64,000 nucleotides of DNA from Nocardioides caldifontis (GTDB taxonomy: Bacteria; Actinomycetota; Actinomycetes; Propionibacteriales; Nocardioidaceae), in assembly GCF_008087345.1 (NCBI RefSeq), contig NZ_ML701737.1, forward strand, positions 248,001 to 312,000. The letters run 5' to 3'. Shown piece by piece: positions 32,124 to 38,982 of the stretch. Position numbers and translations under genes: made by a program. Positions within the stretch are counted from its first letter, which is position 1. Each line of letters opens with the position of its first letter. The notes under the pieces are model-generated. The model was not told where the DNA came from, searched no databases, and saw only the letters and a program-made list of their open reading frames with translations.

Positions 32124-32810
32124 ATGGCCACCACCGCGCCGGAGCGCCGGCACCCCGACCCGGCGTACCTCGCGAGCCTCCGTGCCTACCTGGAAGGCTA
32201 CGCGGCCCGCACCCCGGTGCGCCGCGTCGCCGTCGTGGGCAACGCGCCGCTCGGGCCCAGCGAGGAGCGGGCCGCGCTCATCGACTCCGCCGACCTGGTC
32301 TTCCGGTGCAACTCTCTCGTCCTCGACGAGCCCGGCCGCCCCCCCACCCTCGGACGGGCCACCCACGTGGTCACCCTGGCGCGGGCGACCCGGCCGACCC
32401 CCTGGGTCTTCCAGGACTACCGTTCGCGGGCCTACCTCGTGGTCGACGTCGGCGCCACGCGCCGCCCGAACCCGCCCGGCAACCCGCCCAACTGGCCCAC
32501 CGACCTGGGCGCCTGGCCGATCTCCAACCGCGAGCTCGGCATCCCGCTCAAGATCGCGATGCGCCCCCAGCGGATCGGGTACGGCGCGGTCCCGACCACC
32601 GGCACCCTGATGGCGTACGTCGCCCACGAGCTGTTCGGGGGCCCGGAGCTTCACCTGACGGGGTTCTCCTTCCTCAGCGACCGCGGCCAGACCGAGTGGC
32701 AGCACCACTGGGGGTCGACGGTGCCGGTGCACCCCGCGCACAAGCTCGACGCGGAGGGCGCGATCCTGCAGTCCTGGGTCGACGGCGGGACGGCTACGTT
32801 CGTCCCCTGA
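32124..32810 (+). CDS. GT29-like sialyltransferase homologue
   Basis: A 228-residue protein that I read as a compact family-29 glycosyltransferase. All four sialylmotifs can be traced: motif L at 33-64 (VAVVGNAPLG, then ALIDSADLVFRCN), motif S at 155-183 (VPTTGTLMAYVAHEL, then LHLTGFSF), motif III as HHWG at 194-197, and motif VS as H206-x4-E211. GT29 enzymes use CMP-nonulosonic acids as donors. The neighbouring CMP-pseudaminate genes suggest it transfers Pse to a surface glycan. There is no signal or membrane segment, so it would act in the cytoplasm. Function inferred. Confidence 0.6.
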   Translation: MATTAPERRHPDPAYLASLRAYLEGYAARTPVRRVAVVGNAPLGPSEERAALIDSADLVFRCNSLVLDEPGRPPTLGRATHVVTLARATRPTPWVFQDYRSRAYLVVDVGATRRPNPPGNPPNWPTDLGAWPISNRELGIPLKIAMRPQRIGYGAVPTTGTLMAYVAHELFGGPELHLTGFSFLSDRGQTEWQHHWGSTVPVHPAHKLDAEGAILQSWVDGGTATFVP

Positions 32811-32870
32811 GACCTCCGCGCGTCACCGACCAGCCCCACACACACACGATCTCGGACGACAGGGAACCCC

Positions 32871-33515
32871 ATGGGTGTCAAGGACACGGTCAACCGGCTG
32901 AAGGACTCCTCCGACGACCGGCTGGACCAGCTCGAGGCGCGGCTCGACCGCCAGCGCGAGCAGCTGGTCCGCCAGGGCGAGCAGCTCGCGCGCCAGCGGG
33001 CCCGGCTGGACCGGCAGCAGGCGATGGTCGAGCGCCAGGCCGCCCGGCTCGACCGCCAGACCGACCGGCTCCGCGACCACGCCGACCAGGTGGCGAAGGC
33101 CGCCAGCTCGGCCCTCAAGCTCGTGGCGGTCACCGAGATCCTCGGCAGCCAGGTTGCGGCCCTCGAGACCCGTCTCGCGGACCTGTCCGAGAAGGTGGGC
33201 GGGGCGGCGGTCACCGCGGCGCCCGGCGAGGTCGACGAGGCGCGGTCGCTGCTGGAGGAGGTCCGGGCCGAGCACCGCCGGGTCCGGGAGCGCTTCGGCA
33301 TCGTGGCCGCCTACGAGGAGCGGGTCCGTCGGCTCGAGGAGACCCTCAGGGACGACACCCAGCGGGCGCTCGACGACTTCGTGCGCACCGCGCGGTCGCT
33401 GGCCAAGGAGCTCGACGCGCCCTTCGAGGACACCGCCTCCGGCGACGCGGACGAGCAGCACGAGGACGCCCGCGACCAGGACCCCGGTGACCAGGAGACG
33501 GACCGGGAGGAGTGA
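32871..33515 (+). CDS. Coiled-coil protein of unknown function
   Basis: A 214-residue, highly charged, helical protein. Residues 15-75 are heptad-like repeats of R/Q/L (LDRQREQLVRQGEQLARQRA), a second helical segment covers about 85-180, and the tail is acidic (D/E-rich). No signal peptide, membrane helix or recognised domain. It follows the GT29-like gene by 60 nt on the same strand. It could scaffold a glycosylation complex, but nothing in the sequence proves that. Confidence 0.6.
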   Translation: MGVKDTVNRLKDSSDDRLDQLEARLDRQREQLVRQGEQLARQRARLDRQQAMVERQAARLDRQTDRLRDHADQVAKAASSALKLVAVTEILGSQVAALETRLADLSEKVGGAAVTAAPGEVDEARSLLEEVRAEHRRVRERFGIVAAYEERVRRLEETLRDDTQRALDDFVRTARSLAKELDAPFEDTASGDADEQHEDARDQDPGDQETDREE

Positions 33516-33531
33516 CGGCGTCAGCCGTGGG

Positions 33532-34263
33532 TCACTCGCCGACCCGCTTCTGCTCGACGTGCGCGTTGAGCGCGACAAGGTCGGGGTGGGCGTCGAGCAC
33601 CCGCACGATGCCGGCGCAGTCCAGCCGGTCCGCGCCGTGGTCCTCGACGAGCCTCCGCACGAGCTCGAGGTCCTCGGCGGTGTCGACGGTGACCCGGTAG
33701 CCCGAGCGGTCGGGCGCGAAGGTCAGGTTGCGGACGGTCACCCGGCCGCTGACGTTCTCCGCGAGGTACGGCGTCACGTGCTCGCGGTGGCCGGGCAGCC
33801 GTGCCGAGCGGTCGGCCTCCTCGAGCGCCGCCCGGGAGAACACCTCGAAGTCGAACCCACGGGGGAACGTCCGGGGTCGGGTGTTGGTGACGTAGCCGTC
33901 CGGGTCGTCGAGGCGCAGGAACTCCTCCACGCCCGCCGCGACGACCGCGCCGTCGACCAGCGGGCAGTCGGAGGTCACCCGCACCACCACGTCGAGCCGC
34001 TCCTGCTCGGCCGCGCCGCGGAACCGGGCGAGCACGTCGTGCTCGCTCCCCCGGAAGACGGCTGCCCCGACGGTCCGCGCCAGCTCGGCGACGGGGTCGT
34101 CGGTGGCGTTGGTGGTGGTGGCCACGACGACCGGCAGCCCGGCCTCGGCCAGCCGCGCCAGGTGGTGCTCCAGCAACGTGCGGGCTCCGACCCGCTCGAG
34201 CACCTTGCCCGGCAGCCGGGTGCTGGTGGTGCGGGCCTGGGTGACGACCGCGACGCGCCTCAC
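33532..34263 (-). CDS. pseF: PseF/SpsF-like cytidylyltransferase
   Basis: A 243-residue nucleotidyltransferase. The N-terminal QARTTSTRLPGK (9-20) is the CTP-binding loop of the CMP-sugar synthetase/SpsF family, and RVTSDCPLVDGAVV is the metal-binding region. Beside PseB, PseC, PseG/H and PseI genes it is the best candidate to activate pseudaminic acid as CMP-Pse. GTG start with four-base overlap to pseC. The symbol is assigned from context; SpsF-like proteins also occur outside Pse pathways. Confidence 0.75.
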   Translation of the reverse strand: MRRVAVVTQARTTSTRLPGKVLERVGARTLLEHHLARLAEAGLPVVVATTTNATDDPVAELARTVGAAVFRGSEHDVLARFRGAAEQERLDVVVRVTSDCPLVDGAVVAAGVEEFLRLDDPDGYVTNTRPRTFPRGFDFEVFSRAALEEADRSARLPGHREHVTPYLAENVSGRVTVRNLTFAPDRSGYRVTVDTAEDLELVRRLVEDHGADRLDCAGIVRVLDAHPDLVALNAHVEQKRVGE

Positions 34264-35384
34264 CGCAGGAGCTCCGTCAGGGTCTCGACAACCCGGTCGA
34301 CGTCCTCGTCGCGGAGCTCGACGAACAGCGGGAGCGACAGCTGCTCGGCGTAGAACTGCTCGGCGTTCGGGCACAACCCGCGCCGGTAGCCGAGGTCCTC
34401 GTAGACCGGGTGCCAGTAGACCGGGACGTAGTTGACCTGCACCCCGATGCCCGCGGCACGCATCCGCTCGTACACCTCGCGGCGGCGGCCGTCGAGGACC
34501 CGGACCGGGAAGAGGTGCCACAGCGGGTCGGACCCCGGCACCTGCTCGACCAGCCGCAGCCCGTCGACGTCGGCCAGCCCCGCGCGGTAGCGCGCGACGA
34601 TCTCGCTGCGCCGCTTCTTGAAGGTCGCCAGGCGGCGTAGCTGGCTGAGTCCGAGCGCGCAGGCGACGTCGGTGAGGCGGTAGTTGAGCCCCAGCGCGTG
34701 CACCTCCTGGTGCCACCCGCCGGGATCGACCTCGCGGAACCGCGCGGGGTCGCGGACCAGCCCGATGTTGTGGAACTCCCGGGCCCGCTGCCCCAGCGCC
34801 GGGTCCTTGTGAACCACCGCGCCGCCCTCGCCGGTGGTCAGGTTCTTGGTCGGGAAGAACGACAGCGCGGTGAGGTCGGCGAGGTCGCCGACCGGGCGGC
34901 CGTCGAGGGAGCCGCCGAAGGAGTGCGCGGCGTCGGCGAGCACCAGCGCGCCGGCGTCCCGGGCGACCGCCGTGAGCGCGGCGTAGTCGCACGGCTGGCC
35001 GGCGTAGTCGACGGCCGCGACCACCTTGGTGCGCGGGGTGAGCGCCGCCTCGACCGCCGCCGGGTCGACCAGCGCGGTCTCCGGGTCGACGTCGGCGAAG
35101 ACGATCGTGGCGCCGTGCATCGAGGCGGTGCTCGCGGTGGCGACGAAGGTCATCGGCGTCGTCACCACCTCGTCGCCCGCGCCGATGCCGAGGCTGTCGT
35201 ACGCCGTGTGGAGTGCCGCGGTCCCGGAGGTGGTGGTGACCACGGGGTGGCCGCCGACGGCCTCCGACAACGCCGCCTCGAAGGCGTCGACGGCGGGACC
35301 GGTGGTCAGCCAGTCGCCGCGCAGGACCGCGACGACCGCCTCGACGTCCTCCTCCGAGACGGACTGGCGTCCGTAGGGCAGCAC
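34260..35384 (-). CDS. pseC: UDP-4-amino-4,6-dideoxy-N-acetyl-beta-L-altrosamine transaminase
   Basis: DegT/DnrJ/EryC1-type PLP aminotransferase of 374 residues, the predicted second step of pseudaminate synthesis. The PLP aspartate is in DAAHSFG (151) and the Schiff-base lysine is K180 in FFPTKNLTTGEGG. MLPYGRQSVSEEDVEAVVAVL is typical of PseC. GTG start four nt after pseB. The C-terminal YVPVYWHPVYEDLGY is also PseC-like. Confidence 0.88.
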   Translation of the reverse strand: MLPYGRQSVSEEDVEAVVAVLRGDWLTTGPAVDAFEAALSEAVGGHPVVTTTSGTAALHTAYDSLGIGAGDEVVTTPMTFVATASTASMHGATIVFADVDPETALVDPAAVEAALTPRTKVVAAVDYAGQPCDYAALTAVARDAGALVLADAAHSFGGSLDGRPVGDLADLTALSFFPTKNLTTGEGGAVVHKDPALGQRAREFHNIGLVRDPARFREVDPGGWHQEVHALGLNYRLTDVACALGLSQLRRLATFKKRRSEIVARYRAGLADVDGLRLVEQVPGSDPLWHLFPVRVLDGRRREVYERMRAAGIGVQVNYVPVYWHPVYEDLGYRRGLCPNAEQFYAEQLSLPLFVELRDEDVDRVVETLTELLR

Positions 35385-35388
35385 GGTC

Positions 35389-36372
35389 TCAGTCCAGGGT
35401 GTCGAGGAGGTCGCGGATCTGGTCCTGGGAGTACCACTGGTCGTTGAGGTCCGAGCGGTAGACGAAGCCGTCCTCGACCGCCTCGGCGTCCTCCGGCGCC
35501 TGGAAGCCGAACGTCCCGAGCTCGGGCTGGACCAGGTAGCGGTCGGCCAGCCTCAGCACGCGGCGCCCCTCGTCCGGCGAGATCATCTCCTCGTGGAGCT
35601 TCTCCCCCGGGCGGAGCCCCACGTCGTGCATCGGTGCGCCGGGGGCGACCGCCTCGGCCAGGTCGACGATCTTCATGGACGGGATCCGCGGGACGTAGAG
35701 CTCGCCGCCGTTCATCAGGTCGAAGGAGTCGACGACGAACTTCACCGCCTCGGGCAGCGTGATGAAGAAGCGGGTGCAGCGCAGGTCGGTGATCGGCAGC
35801 GACTCCCCCGCGGCCGCGAGCCTGCGGAAGAACGGGATCACCGATCCGCGGCTGCCCATCACGTTGCCGTAGCGGACCACGGAGAAGCGGGTCACGTAGT
35901 TGGCGGCGTAGTGGTTGCCGGACACGAACAGCTTGTCGGCGGTCAGCTTGGTGGCGCCGTAGAGGTTGATCGGGCTGGAGGCCTTGTCGGTCGAGAGGGC
36001 GACGACCTTCTTGATGCCGGAGTCGATCGCCGCCTCGATGACGTTCTGCGACCCCAGCACGTTGGTCTTCACGAACTCGTAGGGGTTGTACTCCGCGGTG
36101 TCGACCTGCTTCAGCGCCGCCGCGTGGACGACGTAGTCGACGCCGTGCATCGCCCGGTGGAGCCGGCGCTCCTCCCGGACGTCGCCGATGAACCACCGCA
36201 GCCGGGGGTCGTCGCCGAACCGCTGGCGGACCTCGTACTGCTTCAGCTCGTCGCGGGAGAAGACGATCAGCCGCTGCGGGTCCAGGTGCTTCAGGGCATG
36301 GTCGATGAACGCCTTGCCGAAGGACCCGGTGCCCCCGGTCACCAGGATGTTCGACCCGCTCAGTACTGACAC
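35389..36372 (-). CDS. pseB: UDP-N-acetylglucosamine 4,6-dehydratase (5-inverting)
   Basis: First enzyme of the predicted pathway: a 327-residue soluble SDR enzyme. The NAD-binding GGTGSFG lies at 13-19. The catalytic set D129-K130 (STDKASSPINLYGATK), Y138 and K142 is the inverting dehydratase signature. It lacks the N-terminal membrane helices of FlaA1/CapD-type enzymes. GTG 36372 is the first start that gives the conserved NILVTGGTG beginning; the open frame continues upstream without homology. First gene of pseB-pseC-pseF. Confidence 0.9.
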   Translation of the reverse strand: MSVLSGSNILVTGGTGSFGKAFIDHALKHLDPQRLIVFSRDELKQYEVRQRFGDDPRLRWFIGDVREERRLHRAMHGVDYVVHAAALKQVDTAEYNPYEFVKTNVLGSQNVIEAAIDSGIKKVVALSTDKASSPINLYGATKLTADKLFVSGNHYAANYVTRFSVVRYGNVMGSRGSVIPFFRRLAAAGESLPITDLRCTRFFITLPEAVKFVVDSFDLMNGGELYVPRIPSMKIVDLAEAVAPGAPMHDVGLRPGEKLHEEMISPDEGRRVLRLADRYLVQPELGTFGFQAPEDAEAVEDGFVYRSDLNDQWYSQDQIRDLLDTLD

Positions 36373-36421
36373 GCGCGCTATCGTAAGCGGCCGGTTTCCC
36401 CGAGCCAGGTGGTGACGCGCG

Positions 36422-37924
36422 GTGCCCGAGCGACGCTTGGAGGTGCTCCTGCACGCCGACGGGGGGCCGTCGATCGGGGCCGGCCACGTGGTCCGGTGCC
36501 TCGCGCTCGCCGAGGAGCTGCACGCGCGCGGCCACGGAGCCACGCTCGTCGGCCACGTCGAGGGGGCGCTGCTGCGCGAGGGGCTCCGGGCGACCGGGAC
36601 CCAGCACGTCCCGCTCTCCCGTGACGAGCCGCCCGGGCCGGCGCTCGCCCGGCTGGCGGAGGAGCGCGGGGCCGACGTCGTCCACGTGGACCGCTACGAC
36701 GTCGGTGAGCTCGTCGAGGCGCTGGAGGGCGGTCCCCTCCTCACCACGACGTACGACGGTCCGCACGGCGTCCGGGCCGCGCACCTGTCCTTCGACCCCA
36801 CCCTGGGGGCCGAGCACGACCCGCCACCACACAAGGGGCCGGCGCTGAGGGGGGTGCGCTTCGCGCCGCTGCGCCGCGGGGTCACCGCCCGCCGTGGCGA
36901 ACCGCGGGACGCCACGGGCGACCGCCTCCGGGTGCTCGTGGTCATGGGCGGCACCGACGCCCGCGGGCTCCTCCCCCGGGTCCTCGAGCTGCTCGGCGCC
37001 TCCGGCCACCCGCTCGACGTCGTCGCCGTCGACCCCACCGCCACCGGTCCCGTGGTGACCGACCACGGGAGCGCGCGGGTGACCCGGGTCCCGCCCGACC
37101 CCGACATCGCCGCGCTGCTGGCCGGTCGTGACCTCGTGGTCAGCGCCGCCGGCACGTCGGTGCTCGAGCTGCTCTGCCTCGGGGTGCCGGCCGCACTGGT
37201 GCAGGTGGTGGAGAACCAGCGCACCGGCTACGACCGAGTGCTCTCCGCGGGGGCCGCCTTCGGGCTCGGCGACCTCGGTGACACCGGGGACCTGGCCGCC
37301 GCCCGGGCGGTGCTGGCCGAGGCCCTGACGGATGAGGGGCTGCGGGACGCGGTGGCCGCGCGGGGGCGCCGGCTCGTCGACGGGCTCGGGGCCTGGCGGG
37401 TCGTCGGGGCCTGGGAGCACCTGGCCGGACGCGCCCAGCGTCCGGCGACCGAGGACGGGCTGGAGGCCCGCGACGCCACCCTCGACGACGCGGCGACGCT
37501 GCTGGGTTGGCGCAACGACCCGTCGACCCGGAGCGCCTCGCGGAGCACCGCCGAGGTCGGCGCCGAGGAGCACCGGCGGTGGCTCGAGGCGTCGCTGGGC
37601 CGGGACGACCGGCACCTGCTCGTCGTGCGCGACGGGGCGGCGGAGCTCGGGACCGTGCGCTGGGACCGCGACGAGGCCGGCGAGTGGGAGGTCTCGATCA
37701 CGGTCGCGCCGGAGCACCGGGGCCGCGGGCTCGCGGCCGGCGTCCTCGCCGCCGGCGAGCGGGCGCTGCTGGAGCGCGAGCCCGGCGCGGTGACGCTGCT
37801 CGCGGCCGTCCACGTCGACAACGCCGCGTCCCGGCGGCTGTTCGCGGCCACCGGGTGGACCCCCGACCTGCCCGCGGACGACGACGGGTTCGTGCGGCTC
37901 CTCAAGCAGCCGCGGACCGCCTAG
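36422..37924 (+). CDS. PseG-PseH fusion: UDP-sugar hydrolase plus N-acetyltransferase
   Basis: A 500-residue two-domain protein. Residues 1-330 are PseG-like: GPSIGAGHVVRCLALA holds the catalytic histidine H22, and the C-terminal lobe has VVSAAGTSVLELLCLGVPAA and the VVENQ nucleotide-binding stretch. Residues 345-495 are a GNAT acetyltransferase (RDATLDDAATLLGWRND; acetyl-CoA loop VAPEHRGRGLAAG near 428; HVDNAASRRLFAATGW) that fits PseH. One polypeptide would therefore N-acetylate the 4-amino group and release the sugar from UDP. GTG start, divergent from pseB by 49 nt. Its stop overlaps the pseI stop in a shared CTAG. Confidence 0.85.
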   Translation: MPERRLEVLLHADGGPSIGAGHVVRCLALAEELHARGHGATLVGHVEGALLREGLRATGTQHVPLSRDEPPGPALARLAEERGADVVHVDRYDVGELVEALEGGPLLTTTYDGPHGVRAAHLSFDPTLGAEHDPPPHKGPALRGVRFAPLRRGVTARRGEPRDATGDRLRVLVVMGGTDARGLLPRVLELLGASGHPLDVVAVDPTATGPVVTDHGSARVTRVPPDPDIAALLAGRDLVVSAAGTSVLELLCLGVPAALVQVVENQRTGYDRVLSAGAAFGLGDLGDTGDLAAARAVLAEALTDEGLRDAVAARGRRLVDGLGAWRVVGAWEHLAGRAQRPATEDGLEARDATLDDAATLLGWRNDPSTRSASRSTAEVGAEEHRRWLEASLGRDDRHLLVVRDGAAELGTVRWDRDEAGEWEVSITVAPEHRGRGLAAGVLAAGERALLEREPGAVTLLAAVHVDNAASRRLFAATGWTPDLPADDDGFVRLLKQPRTA

Positions 37925-38982
37925 AGCAGCTCCCAGGAGAGCGGCGTGCCGCGCTCGGCGTCCCGGGTGAACCGGCGGCCCAGGACGGTCTCCAGCGCCG
38001 CGGGCGGCAGCCCGCCGGCCGGCCGCACGGAGCGCACGTTCCGCGCGGTCACCGGATCACCGGCACGGACGTCCTCGACGACGTAGAGCGAGCGGCGCAA
38101 CCGGAGCACCGCCTGCTCGGACTCGGTGGGGCCGAAGGCGGTCCCGCTCCTCGACGCGCGCCACGCGGTCTCGGTCTCGCGGCGCAGCAGCGCGAGCTCG
38201 GCGGGCTCGAGCGAGAACGCGCTGTCCACCCCGCCGTCGTCGCGCCCGAGCGTCACGTGCTTCTCGATGCAGACCGCGCCCTTCGCCACCGCGGCGACGG
38301 CGGCGCCGATCCCGAGCGTGTGGTCCGAGAGGCCGACCGGCACCCCGAACGCCTCGTGGAGCACGGCGATGTTGCCGAGGCGGGCGTCGTCGGGGTCGGC
38401 CGGGTAGGACGCCGTGCAGGCGAGCAGCACCAGCTCGGTGCAACCGCCGTCGGCTGCGGCGTTCACGGCGGCATCGATCTCGGCGAGCGTCGCCATTCCG
38501 GTCGACATCAGCACCGGCTTGCCGGTGCGGGCGATCTCGCGGATCAGCGGCAGGTCGACGATCTCGGCGGACGCCGTCTTGTACAACGCGACGCCGCACT
38601 CCTCGAGGAGCTCGATCGCGGTGGGGTCGAAGGGGGTCGAGAACGCCACCAGCCCCTGCTCACGGGCGCGGGCGAAGATCGGCTCGTGCCACTCCCACGG
38701 GGTGTGCGCCTCCTCGTAGAGCTGGTGGAGGGTCCGGCCGCCCCAGAGCCCGTGGTCGTCGGTTACCCGGAACTCGGGCCGGTCGACGTCGAGGGTGAGC
38801 GTGTCCGCGGTGTAGGTCTGGATCTTCAGCGCCTGCGCCCCGGACGCCGCGATGGCGTCGACGATCGCCAGCGCGCGGTCGAGGTCGCCGTTGTGGTTGC
38901 CGGACATCTCGGCGACCACGAACGGCGGGTGGTCGGCGCCGATCCGGTGGCCGGCGGCCTGGACAGTCGCTGCGAAACCCAC
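37921..38982 (-). CDS. pseI: Pseudaminic acid synthase
   Basis: A 353-residue NeuB-family enzyme condensing the 6-deoxy sugar with phosphoenolpyruvate. VAEMSGNHNGD (23-33) and ALKIQTYTADTLTLD are the PseI-type rather than NeuB-type signatures; LYKTASAEIVDLPLI and STGMATLAEI continue the barrel. A SAF/antifreeze-like C-terminal domain covers about residues 290-350. GTG start. It lies 23 nt after the FAD/Fe-S dehydrogenase gene on the same strand and so may be transcribed with that group rather than with pseB-C-F. Confidence 0.88.
   Translation of the reverse strand: MGFAATVQAAGHRIGADHPPFVVAEMSGNHNGDLDRALAIVDAIAASGAQALKIQTYTADTLTLDVDRPEFRVTDDHGLWGGRTLHQLYEEAHTPWEWHEPIFARAREQGLVAFSTPFDPTAIELLEECGVALYKTASAEIVDLPLIREIARTGKPVLMSTGMATLAEIDAAVNAAADGGCTELVLLACTASYPADPDDARLGNIAVLHEAFGVPVGLSDHTLGIGAAVAAVAKGAVCIEKHVTLGRDDGGVDSAFSLEPAELALLRRETETAWRASRSGTAFGPTESEQAVLRLRRSLYVVEDVRAGDPVTARNVRSVRPAGGLPPAALETVLGRRFTRDAERGTPLSWELL

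Follow-up and report, generated by a model that had tools for sequence, protein, structure and literature searches.

How an actinobacterium might use a sialyltransferase-like enzyme encoded beside genes for pseudaminic acid (Pse) is the question raised by a locus of Nocardioides caldifontis. GT29 is best known as an animal sialyltransferase family, and Pse is a bacterial relative of sialic acid. The locus is an island of seven reading frames at positions 32124-38982 of the window, which here means the whole 64,000-nucleotide stretch that was analysed (assembly GCF_008087345.1, contig NZ_ML701737.1, positions 248,001 to 312,000). The initial annotation described a complete Pse pathway next to a compact GT29-like enzyme, and it proposed that a wall polymer or glycan is decorated with Pse, perhaps with a neighbouring coiled-coil protein as partner. 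In the main, this reading was correct. The sequence evidence for GT29 membership is good, the case for the partnership is far stronger than that annotation could know, and a wall polymer appears to be favoured. The gene content of the island, the GT29 membership by profile, the near-perfect pairing of transferase and coiled coil and the nonulosonate link are all directly visible. The new observations are this pairing, its link to PseB, the presence of the pair with other nonulosonate genes outside the family, and its company with the galactofuran synthase GlfT2 rather than flagellin. On balance, a two-protein GT29 transferase that would put Pse on a wall polymer, most likely a galactofuran, is the explanation that we lean towards.

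Evidence for a GT29 transferase

The transferase candidate matched the Pfam GT29 model PF00777 with 29.9 bits (E 4.6e-7), which is above the cut-off of 23, and the GT29 identity proposed for it was thereby upheld. The other six island proteins showed no match to this model at E<=1. All 14 members of the GT29 alignment A1 also matched PF00777 at E<=1 (best 6.5e-8). A six-frame search with the same model at E<=0.001 revealed nothing in the window genome nor in its 14 control genomes; this search says little because the controls were also blank, and therefore protein-level scans and our own profiles were used instead. The single candidate sequence found nothing significant among the PDB sequences (a pseudokinase came first at E 1.5, followed by two GT29 ST3Gal1 sequences at E 2). 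With a 14-row GT29 profile, 8 of the 10 PDB matches at E<=1 were GT29 enzymes (best E 0.0068) and two were prephenate dehydrogenases. With a 23-row profile, all eight matches at E<=10 were GT29 sialyltransferases, each of them weak (E 0.0087-0.92). The GT42 sialyltransferases (Campylobacter Cst type) share the cytidine monophosphate (CMP)-nonulosonate donors with GT29, and they are described as related to it in PMC5811610. No GT42 chain was found among the PDB matches of the GT29 profiles, and no GT42 Pfam match among the island proteins.

The 23-row GT29 alignment showed that N40, D54, R61 and G160 are invariant (23/23 each). H206 and E211 are kept in all 22 rows that reach them, and H194 is found in 20 of the 23 rows, with Y in the other three. 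These residues were mapped by eye to the sialylmotifs L, S, III and VS, with the help of PMC5811610 and PMC10225777. With that mapping, all four motifs can be traced, as had been claimed. The VS histidine is given as the catalytic base of vertebrate GT29 in PMC10225777. At the end of motif L (window 32310-32312, position 63 of the candidate protein), RxN occurs in 17 of the 23 rows and RxT in six (L069, L076, L078, L079, L082 and L083), which are all of one clade. Because the GT29 sequences in the PDB show N, this difference marks a clade and is not just a switch of donor.

The animal and proteobacterial GT29 enzymes and the window enzyme have in common PF00777 and the sialylmotif positions, among them the histidine and glutamate of motif VS. 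The window enzyme differs from them in its phylum (Actinomycetota), its length of about 228 residues, its linkage to Pse genes and its coiled-coil partner gene. PMC5811610 records bacterial GT29 in the Alpha-, Gamma- and Epsilonproteobacteria, and describes them as lacking the transmembrane segment and disulphide cysteines of the animal enzymes; both features also appear, by eye, to be missing from the window enzyme. Among the papers listed by searches of the open-licence PMC literature, none was on GT29 in Actinomycetota. Taken together, the candidate is very probably a GT29-type CMP-nonulosonate transferase.

A coiled-coil protein paired with the transferase

The family survey covered 341 genomes, with thresholds of E<=1e-5 for GT29 and E<=1e-8 for the coiled coil; the coiled-coil profile was built from 19 coiled-coil neighbours of GT29. 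Both proteins were found in the same 26 genomes, with 29 copies each. The coiled coil lies directly downstream of GT29 on the same strand in 29 of 29 cases, with a gap between profile edges of -34 to 113 bp. Counted by hand, 14 of these coiled coils are rows of the profile and 15 are outside it, although one of the latter (G016) is almost the same as a row. The two genes of the window are 60 bp apart, and in 11 of the 19 inspected pairs the end of GT29 and the chosen start of the coiled coil share 4 bases. The partner is also found just downstream of GT29 in two Microbacteriaceae loci (profile E 1.7e-7 and 8.5e-7). The similarity matrices of the two proteins are correlated (r 0.75, n=19, none of 2000 permutations as high), a result which shared ancestry alone can give.

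The C-terminal block of the coiled coil has six residues that are invariant in the 19 rows (H135, R139, R141, E149, R151 and E156), and no Pfam model matched the protein over its cut-off. Its profile matched designed bundles and other coiled coils in the PDB, some of them viral, which is read as composition. Two of the 29 coiled-coil matches (G769 and G761) are interrupted by a stop codon within the alignment; the open frame of G769 stops just short of the end of the match. The suggestion that this neighbour is a partner has gained strong support from the survey, and the coiled coil is likely to be a working partner of GT29.

Three genomes carry two GT29-coiled coil pairs each (G005 in loci L020 and L021, G034 in L025, and G611 in L146). 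A PseG-PseB-PseC block lies between the two pairs in both L025 and L146.

Predicted supply of the sugar donor

The seven reading frames of the island, whose coordinates agreed with the initial annotation on checking, are as follows.

32124-32810, plus strand: putative GT29-type CMP-nonulosonate transferase, 228 residues (PF00777, PDB profile matches, motif residues)
32871-33515, plus strand: coiled-coil partner, 214 residues (conserved C-terminal block)
33532-34263, minus strand: cytidine triphosphate (CTP) transferase, presumed CMP-Pse synthetase (PseF role; PF02348, 71.5 bits)
34260-35384, minus strand: PseC-type aminotransferase (TIGR03588, 407.5 bits, cut-off 423.5)
35389-36372, minus strand: PseB, inverting uridine diphosphate-N-acetylglucosamine (UDP-GlcNAc) 4,6-dehydratase (TIGR03589, 471.0 bits, cut-off 407.75)
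36422-37924, plus strand: fusion of a PseG-like hydrolase and a GNAT acetyltransferase (PseH role; TIGR03590, TIGR03585, PF13302)
37921-38982, minus strand: PseI, pseudaminic acid synthase (TIGR03586, 434.7 bits, cut-off 340.25)

The claim of a complete Pse pathway holds in outline. PseB and PseI pass their NCBIfam equivalog cut-offs, and PseC falls 16 bits short of its own, the next model reaching 250.9 bits. The NeuB model gave PseI 261.0 bits, which is below its cut-off of 399.65. The matches for the other three roles are weak or generic. The PseG part of the fusion scored 86.9 bits (equivalog cut-off 153.55) and the PseH part 19.9 bits, far below 93.1; generic GNAT models fit the latter, with PF13302 at 47.1 bits. 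The CTP transferase matched Kdo-type (3-deoxy-D-manno-octulosonic acid) models below their cut-offs, and showed no match to the PseF model (TIGR03584) at E<=0.1. The roles of PseF, PseG and PseH are thus suggested by best match and position. PseI is the single NeuB-family match in the window genome; because of this and the pathway model matches, CMP-Pse is the expected product of the island, made from UDP-GlcNAc. The donor of the transferase is probably Pse.

The same link was seen across genomes. The PseB model matches 96 of the 98 genomes in the set of relatives through related dehydratases, and only matches over the cut-off were counted (29/98; 34/341). Within the family survey, such a PseB is found in 25 of the 26 genomes with GT29 vs 9 of the 315 without it (Fisher 2e-29, no kinship correction). 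The lone GT29 genome without PseB is G059, where the contig with the pair is 4.2 kb long and breaks off within PseC. For 28 of the 29 GT29 copies the nearest PseB is 0.4 to 14.8 kb away. GT29 was found in 13 of the 98 relatives at E<=0.001, and in 12 after G052 was dropped; its match (E 2.9e-4) has one internal stop, and none was seen at E<=1e-5. Sixteen genomes of one genus in group f3 (including G062 and G065) have PseB over the cut-off and no match to GT29 or GlfT2.

Outside the family, seven loci had usable flanks (L069, L075, L076, L078, L079, L082 and L083). For example, L082 of Actinokineospora diospyrosa has NeuC (367.0 bits, over 235.9), a NeuB-family protein (353.6 bits, under 399.65) and a CMP synthetase, which apparently form an N-acetylneuraminic acid (Neu5Ac) pathway. 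These genes surround GT29 at L082:9225-16191, beside a galactan-type exporter. The Microbacteriaceae locus L083 encodes a fusion of a CMP synthetase with a phosphatase domain, plus a NeuB-family protein, and by BLAST L079 looks like it. The phosphatase domain matched the KdsC model (98.3 of 208 bits) and the phosphatase model for 2-keto-3-deoxynonulosonic acid (Kdn) 9-phosphate (80.5 of 180), both under cut-off, which suggests a Kdn-type route in both loci. The fusion genes, with the adjoining NeuB-family gene and GT29, lie at L083:8281-10334 and L079:10983-13036. A NeuB-family protein is encoded in L078, and a CMP synthetase in L076. Since NeuABC or other nonulosonate genes accompany the pair in these places, it follows the CMP-nonulosonate supply. 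In the tree, L069, L076, L078, L079, L082 and L083 are split from the remaining 17 rows (support 100/98). The branch is rare, since only 2 of 396 genomes in the phylum sample matched GT29, namely the window genome and one weak match.

Candidate acceptors

A galactofuran polymer is the most favoured acceptor, and this part of the explanation is tentative. In L069 of Thermomonospora echinospora, the genes for UDP-galactopyranose mutase (GLF), GlfT2, an ABC-2 permease and an ABC ATPase are located upstream of the pair; for the ABC genes, the best models are exporters of teichoic acid and galactan, with scores under cut-off. Near its pair, L082 has a galactan-export permease over the cut-off (421.9 of 380), and L078 has an ABC-2 permease with a family-2 transferase, so that export or galactan-type genes are near the pair in three of the seven outside loci. 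The window genome itself has one group of such genes on contig C2 (G000:C2), which encode GLF, GlfT2, an ABC-2 permease and an ABC ATPase along with an LCP protein and two family-2 transferases. GlfT2 was found in 44 of the 98 relatives, all within group f1, where it occurs in 12 of 12 genomes with GT29 vs 32 of 49 without (p 0.014). Among the 29 relatives with PseB over the cut-off, GlfT2 is present in 11/11 with GT29 and 0/18 without, a contrast that counts nearer three than eighteen; this comparison covers the 98 relatives.

Several points weigh against the two-protein transferase for a galactofuran. The PDB matches of the GT29 profile are weak and cover mostly motif L. The surveyed genomes are related, and the Fisher values overstate their independence. 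In the family scans, scoring was limited to the top candidates of each genome (about 8 for GT29 and 11 for the coiled coil), and therefore the absences are not exhaustive. No nonulosonate gene is seen in the flanking DNA examined for L069 and L075, and in L069 a distance of about 3.2 kb, including an unannotated stretch, separates the ABC genes from GT29. In the window genome the galactan operon is on a different contig from the island, and the galactan exporter model gives its permease 47.1 bits (cut-off 380). GlfT2 is common anyway, as its frequency in the GT29-free f1 genomes shows, and one of its 12 matches (G013) is a fragment. The contrast among the PseB genomes is reduced because 16 of the 18 belong to one genus, which may be Kribbella; inside f1 it comes down to one genome (G018).

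The same two-protein transferase might also serve another envelope target, such as some other polysaccharide on a lipid carrier, a polymer of the teichulosonic type or a surface glycoprotein apart from flagellin. This is rather unlikely; several loci speak for it. A family-2 glycosyltransferase lies directly beside the pair in L143 (by Pfam) and in L142 and L146 (by BLAST grouping), and another lies within the L025 cluster; one cluster of G005 has RmlD, group-1 glycosyltransferase and pyruvyl-transferase genes. Nonulosonate-containing, teichulosonic wall polymers are recorded in Kribbella (PMC6113628), and the window genome has GLF-GlfT2-ABC-LCP genes of the kind that serve actinomycete wall galactans. 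No link between GT29 and a teichulosonic or galactan wall polymer was found in the literature searched, most wall-polymer chemistry being published outside the open-licence set. Against such a target, GlfT2, the sole acceptor gene tested, is present in 12/12 GT29 genomes, and the GT29 candidate is the sole transferase among the seven island proteins. As an observation on the G005 cluster, a gene of the polysaccharide pyruvyl-transferase family (PF04230, 62.9 bits) lies beside PseB at L020:4609-6231.

Flagellin is the classical target of Pse, and Pse pathways elsewhere work with Maf or FlmG transferases; the Maf flagellin transferases transfer Pse in the cytosol. The window genome has two flagellin-N matches. 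However, these genes are on another contig, and no Maf domain was found: the Maf model PF01973 (MptE-like) had no match in the seven island proteins and 0 matches genome-wide, and a Maf transferase elsewhere in the genome was rejected. The island and the Maf systems would share the transfer of Pse in the cytosol. Flagellin matches were found in 16 of the 98 relatives and were unassociated with GT29 within f1 (3/12 vs 13/49, p 1.0). Nine of the 12 GT29 genomes have no flagellin match (six of these nine are under 90% complete), and flagellin as a general target was also rejected. Glycosylation of flagellin by this island is therefore improbable. Between the two, the flagellin result and the GLF/GlfT2 context favour the wall polymer that the initial annotation had named, whose role as acceptor stays at the level of a reasonable proposal. 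That the coiled coil itself is the acceptor, glycosylated by GT29 in the cytosol, would fit the near-perfect pairing and adjacency, but it is very improbable, as the conserved block is a charged coiled coil in which H, R and E residues are invariant but no Ser/Thr is, and no export signal was noticed by eye (no computed prediction).

Proposed mechanism and significance

For the favoured galactofuran route, we infer the donor, the complex formation, the catalysis and above all the acceptor from the genes described above. The island would make CMP-Pse from UDP-GlcNAc in the cytosol. GT29 and the co-expressed coiled coil may then move Pse from CMP-Pse with inversion, with H206 as the presumed base, as in animal GT29. 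The acceptor would be a lipid-linked wall polymer whose genes lie outside the island, most likely a galactofuran chain produced with GLF and GlfT2. An ABC transporter might export the decorated polymer, and an LCP ligase might fix it to the wall; both steps follow the known actinobacterial galactan. The coiled coil could be an enzyme tether or a chain-length gauge, which is a guess. More generally, it is conceivable, and somewhat doubtful, that the Actinomycetota branch of GT29 is an obligate two-protein transferase that caps galactofuran galactan with Pse in Nocardioidaceae, Neu5Ac in Actinokineospora and a Kdn-like sugar in Microbacteriaceae.

These results describe an actinobacterial GT29 branch with a fixed partner gene, which occurs alongside Pse, Neu5Ac-type and probably Kdn-type genes. 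Structural studies and the synthesis of Pse-glycosides would gain compact bacterial GT29 enzymes from this branch, which would add a lineage to the question of the origin of animal GT29. It would also point to a sialic-acid-like decoration of Gram-positive wall polymers.

Genomic setting of the island

The window genome is 4.8 Mb in size, and a ribosomal str-type operon (rpsL, rpsG, fusA and tuf, read by eye) adjoins the island. GT29 and PseB over the cut-off were not found in the four genus mates searched, one of which is 82% complete. In locus L018, a similar island is sited by panC and a lysS-like gene. Because the genus mates are without GT29 and PseB and the L018 island is elsewhere, the island appears to be mobile between genomic sites. 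Carriage by phages, plasmids or viral contigs was rejected as a route of spread, as no match was seen in the collections searched (one search used six short peptide patterns).

Three loci (L149, L150 and L152) have Pse islands without GT29. Their PseI and PseC share 69-71% and 70-74% identity with those of the window, and are as close to them as those of the GT29-bearing islands, or closer. No glycosyltransferase was found among the flanking frames scanned, four of L149 and two of L152. In the window, a GGGGGAC stretch is located a few bases 5' of the ATG of the GT29 candidate at 32124.

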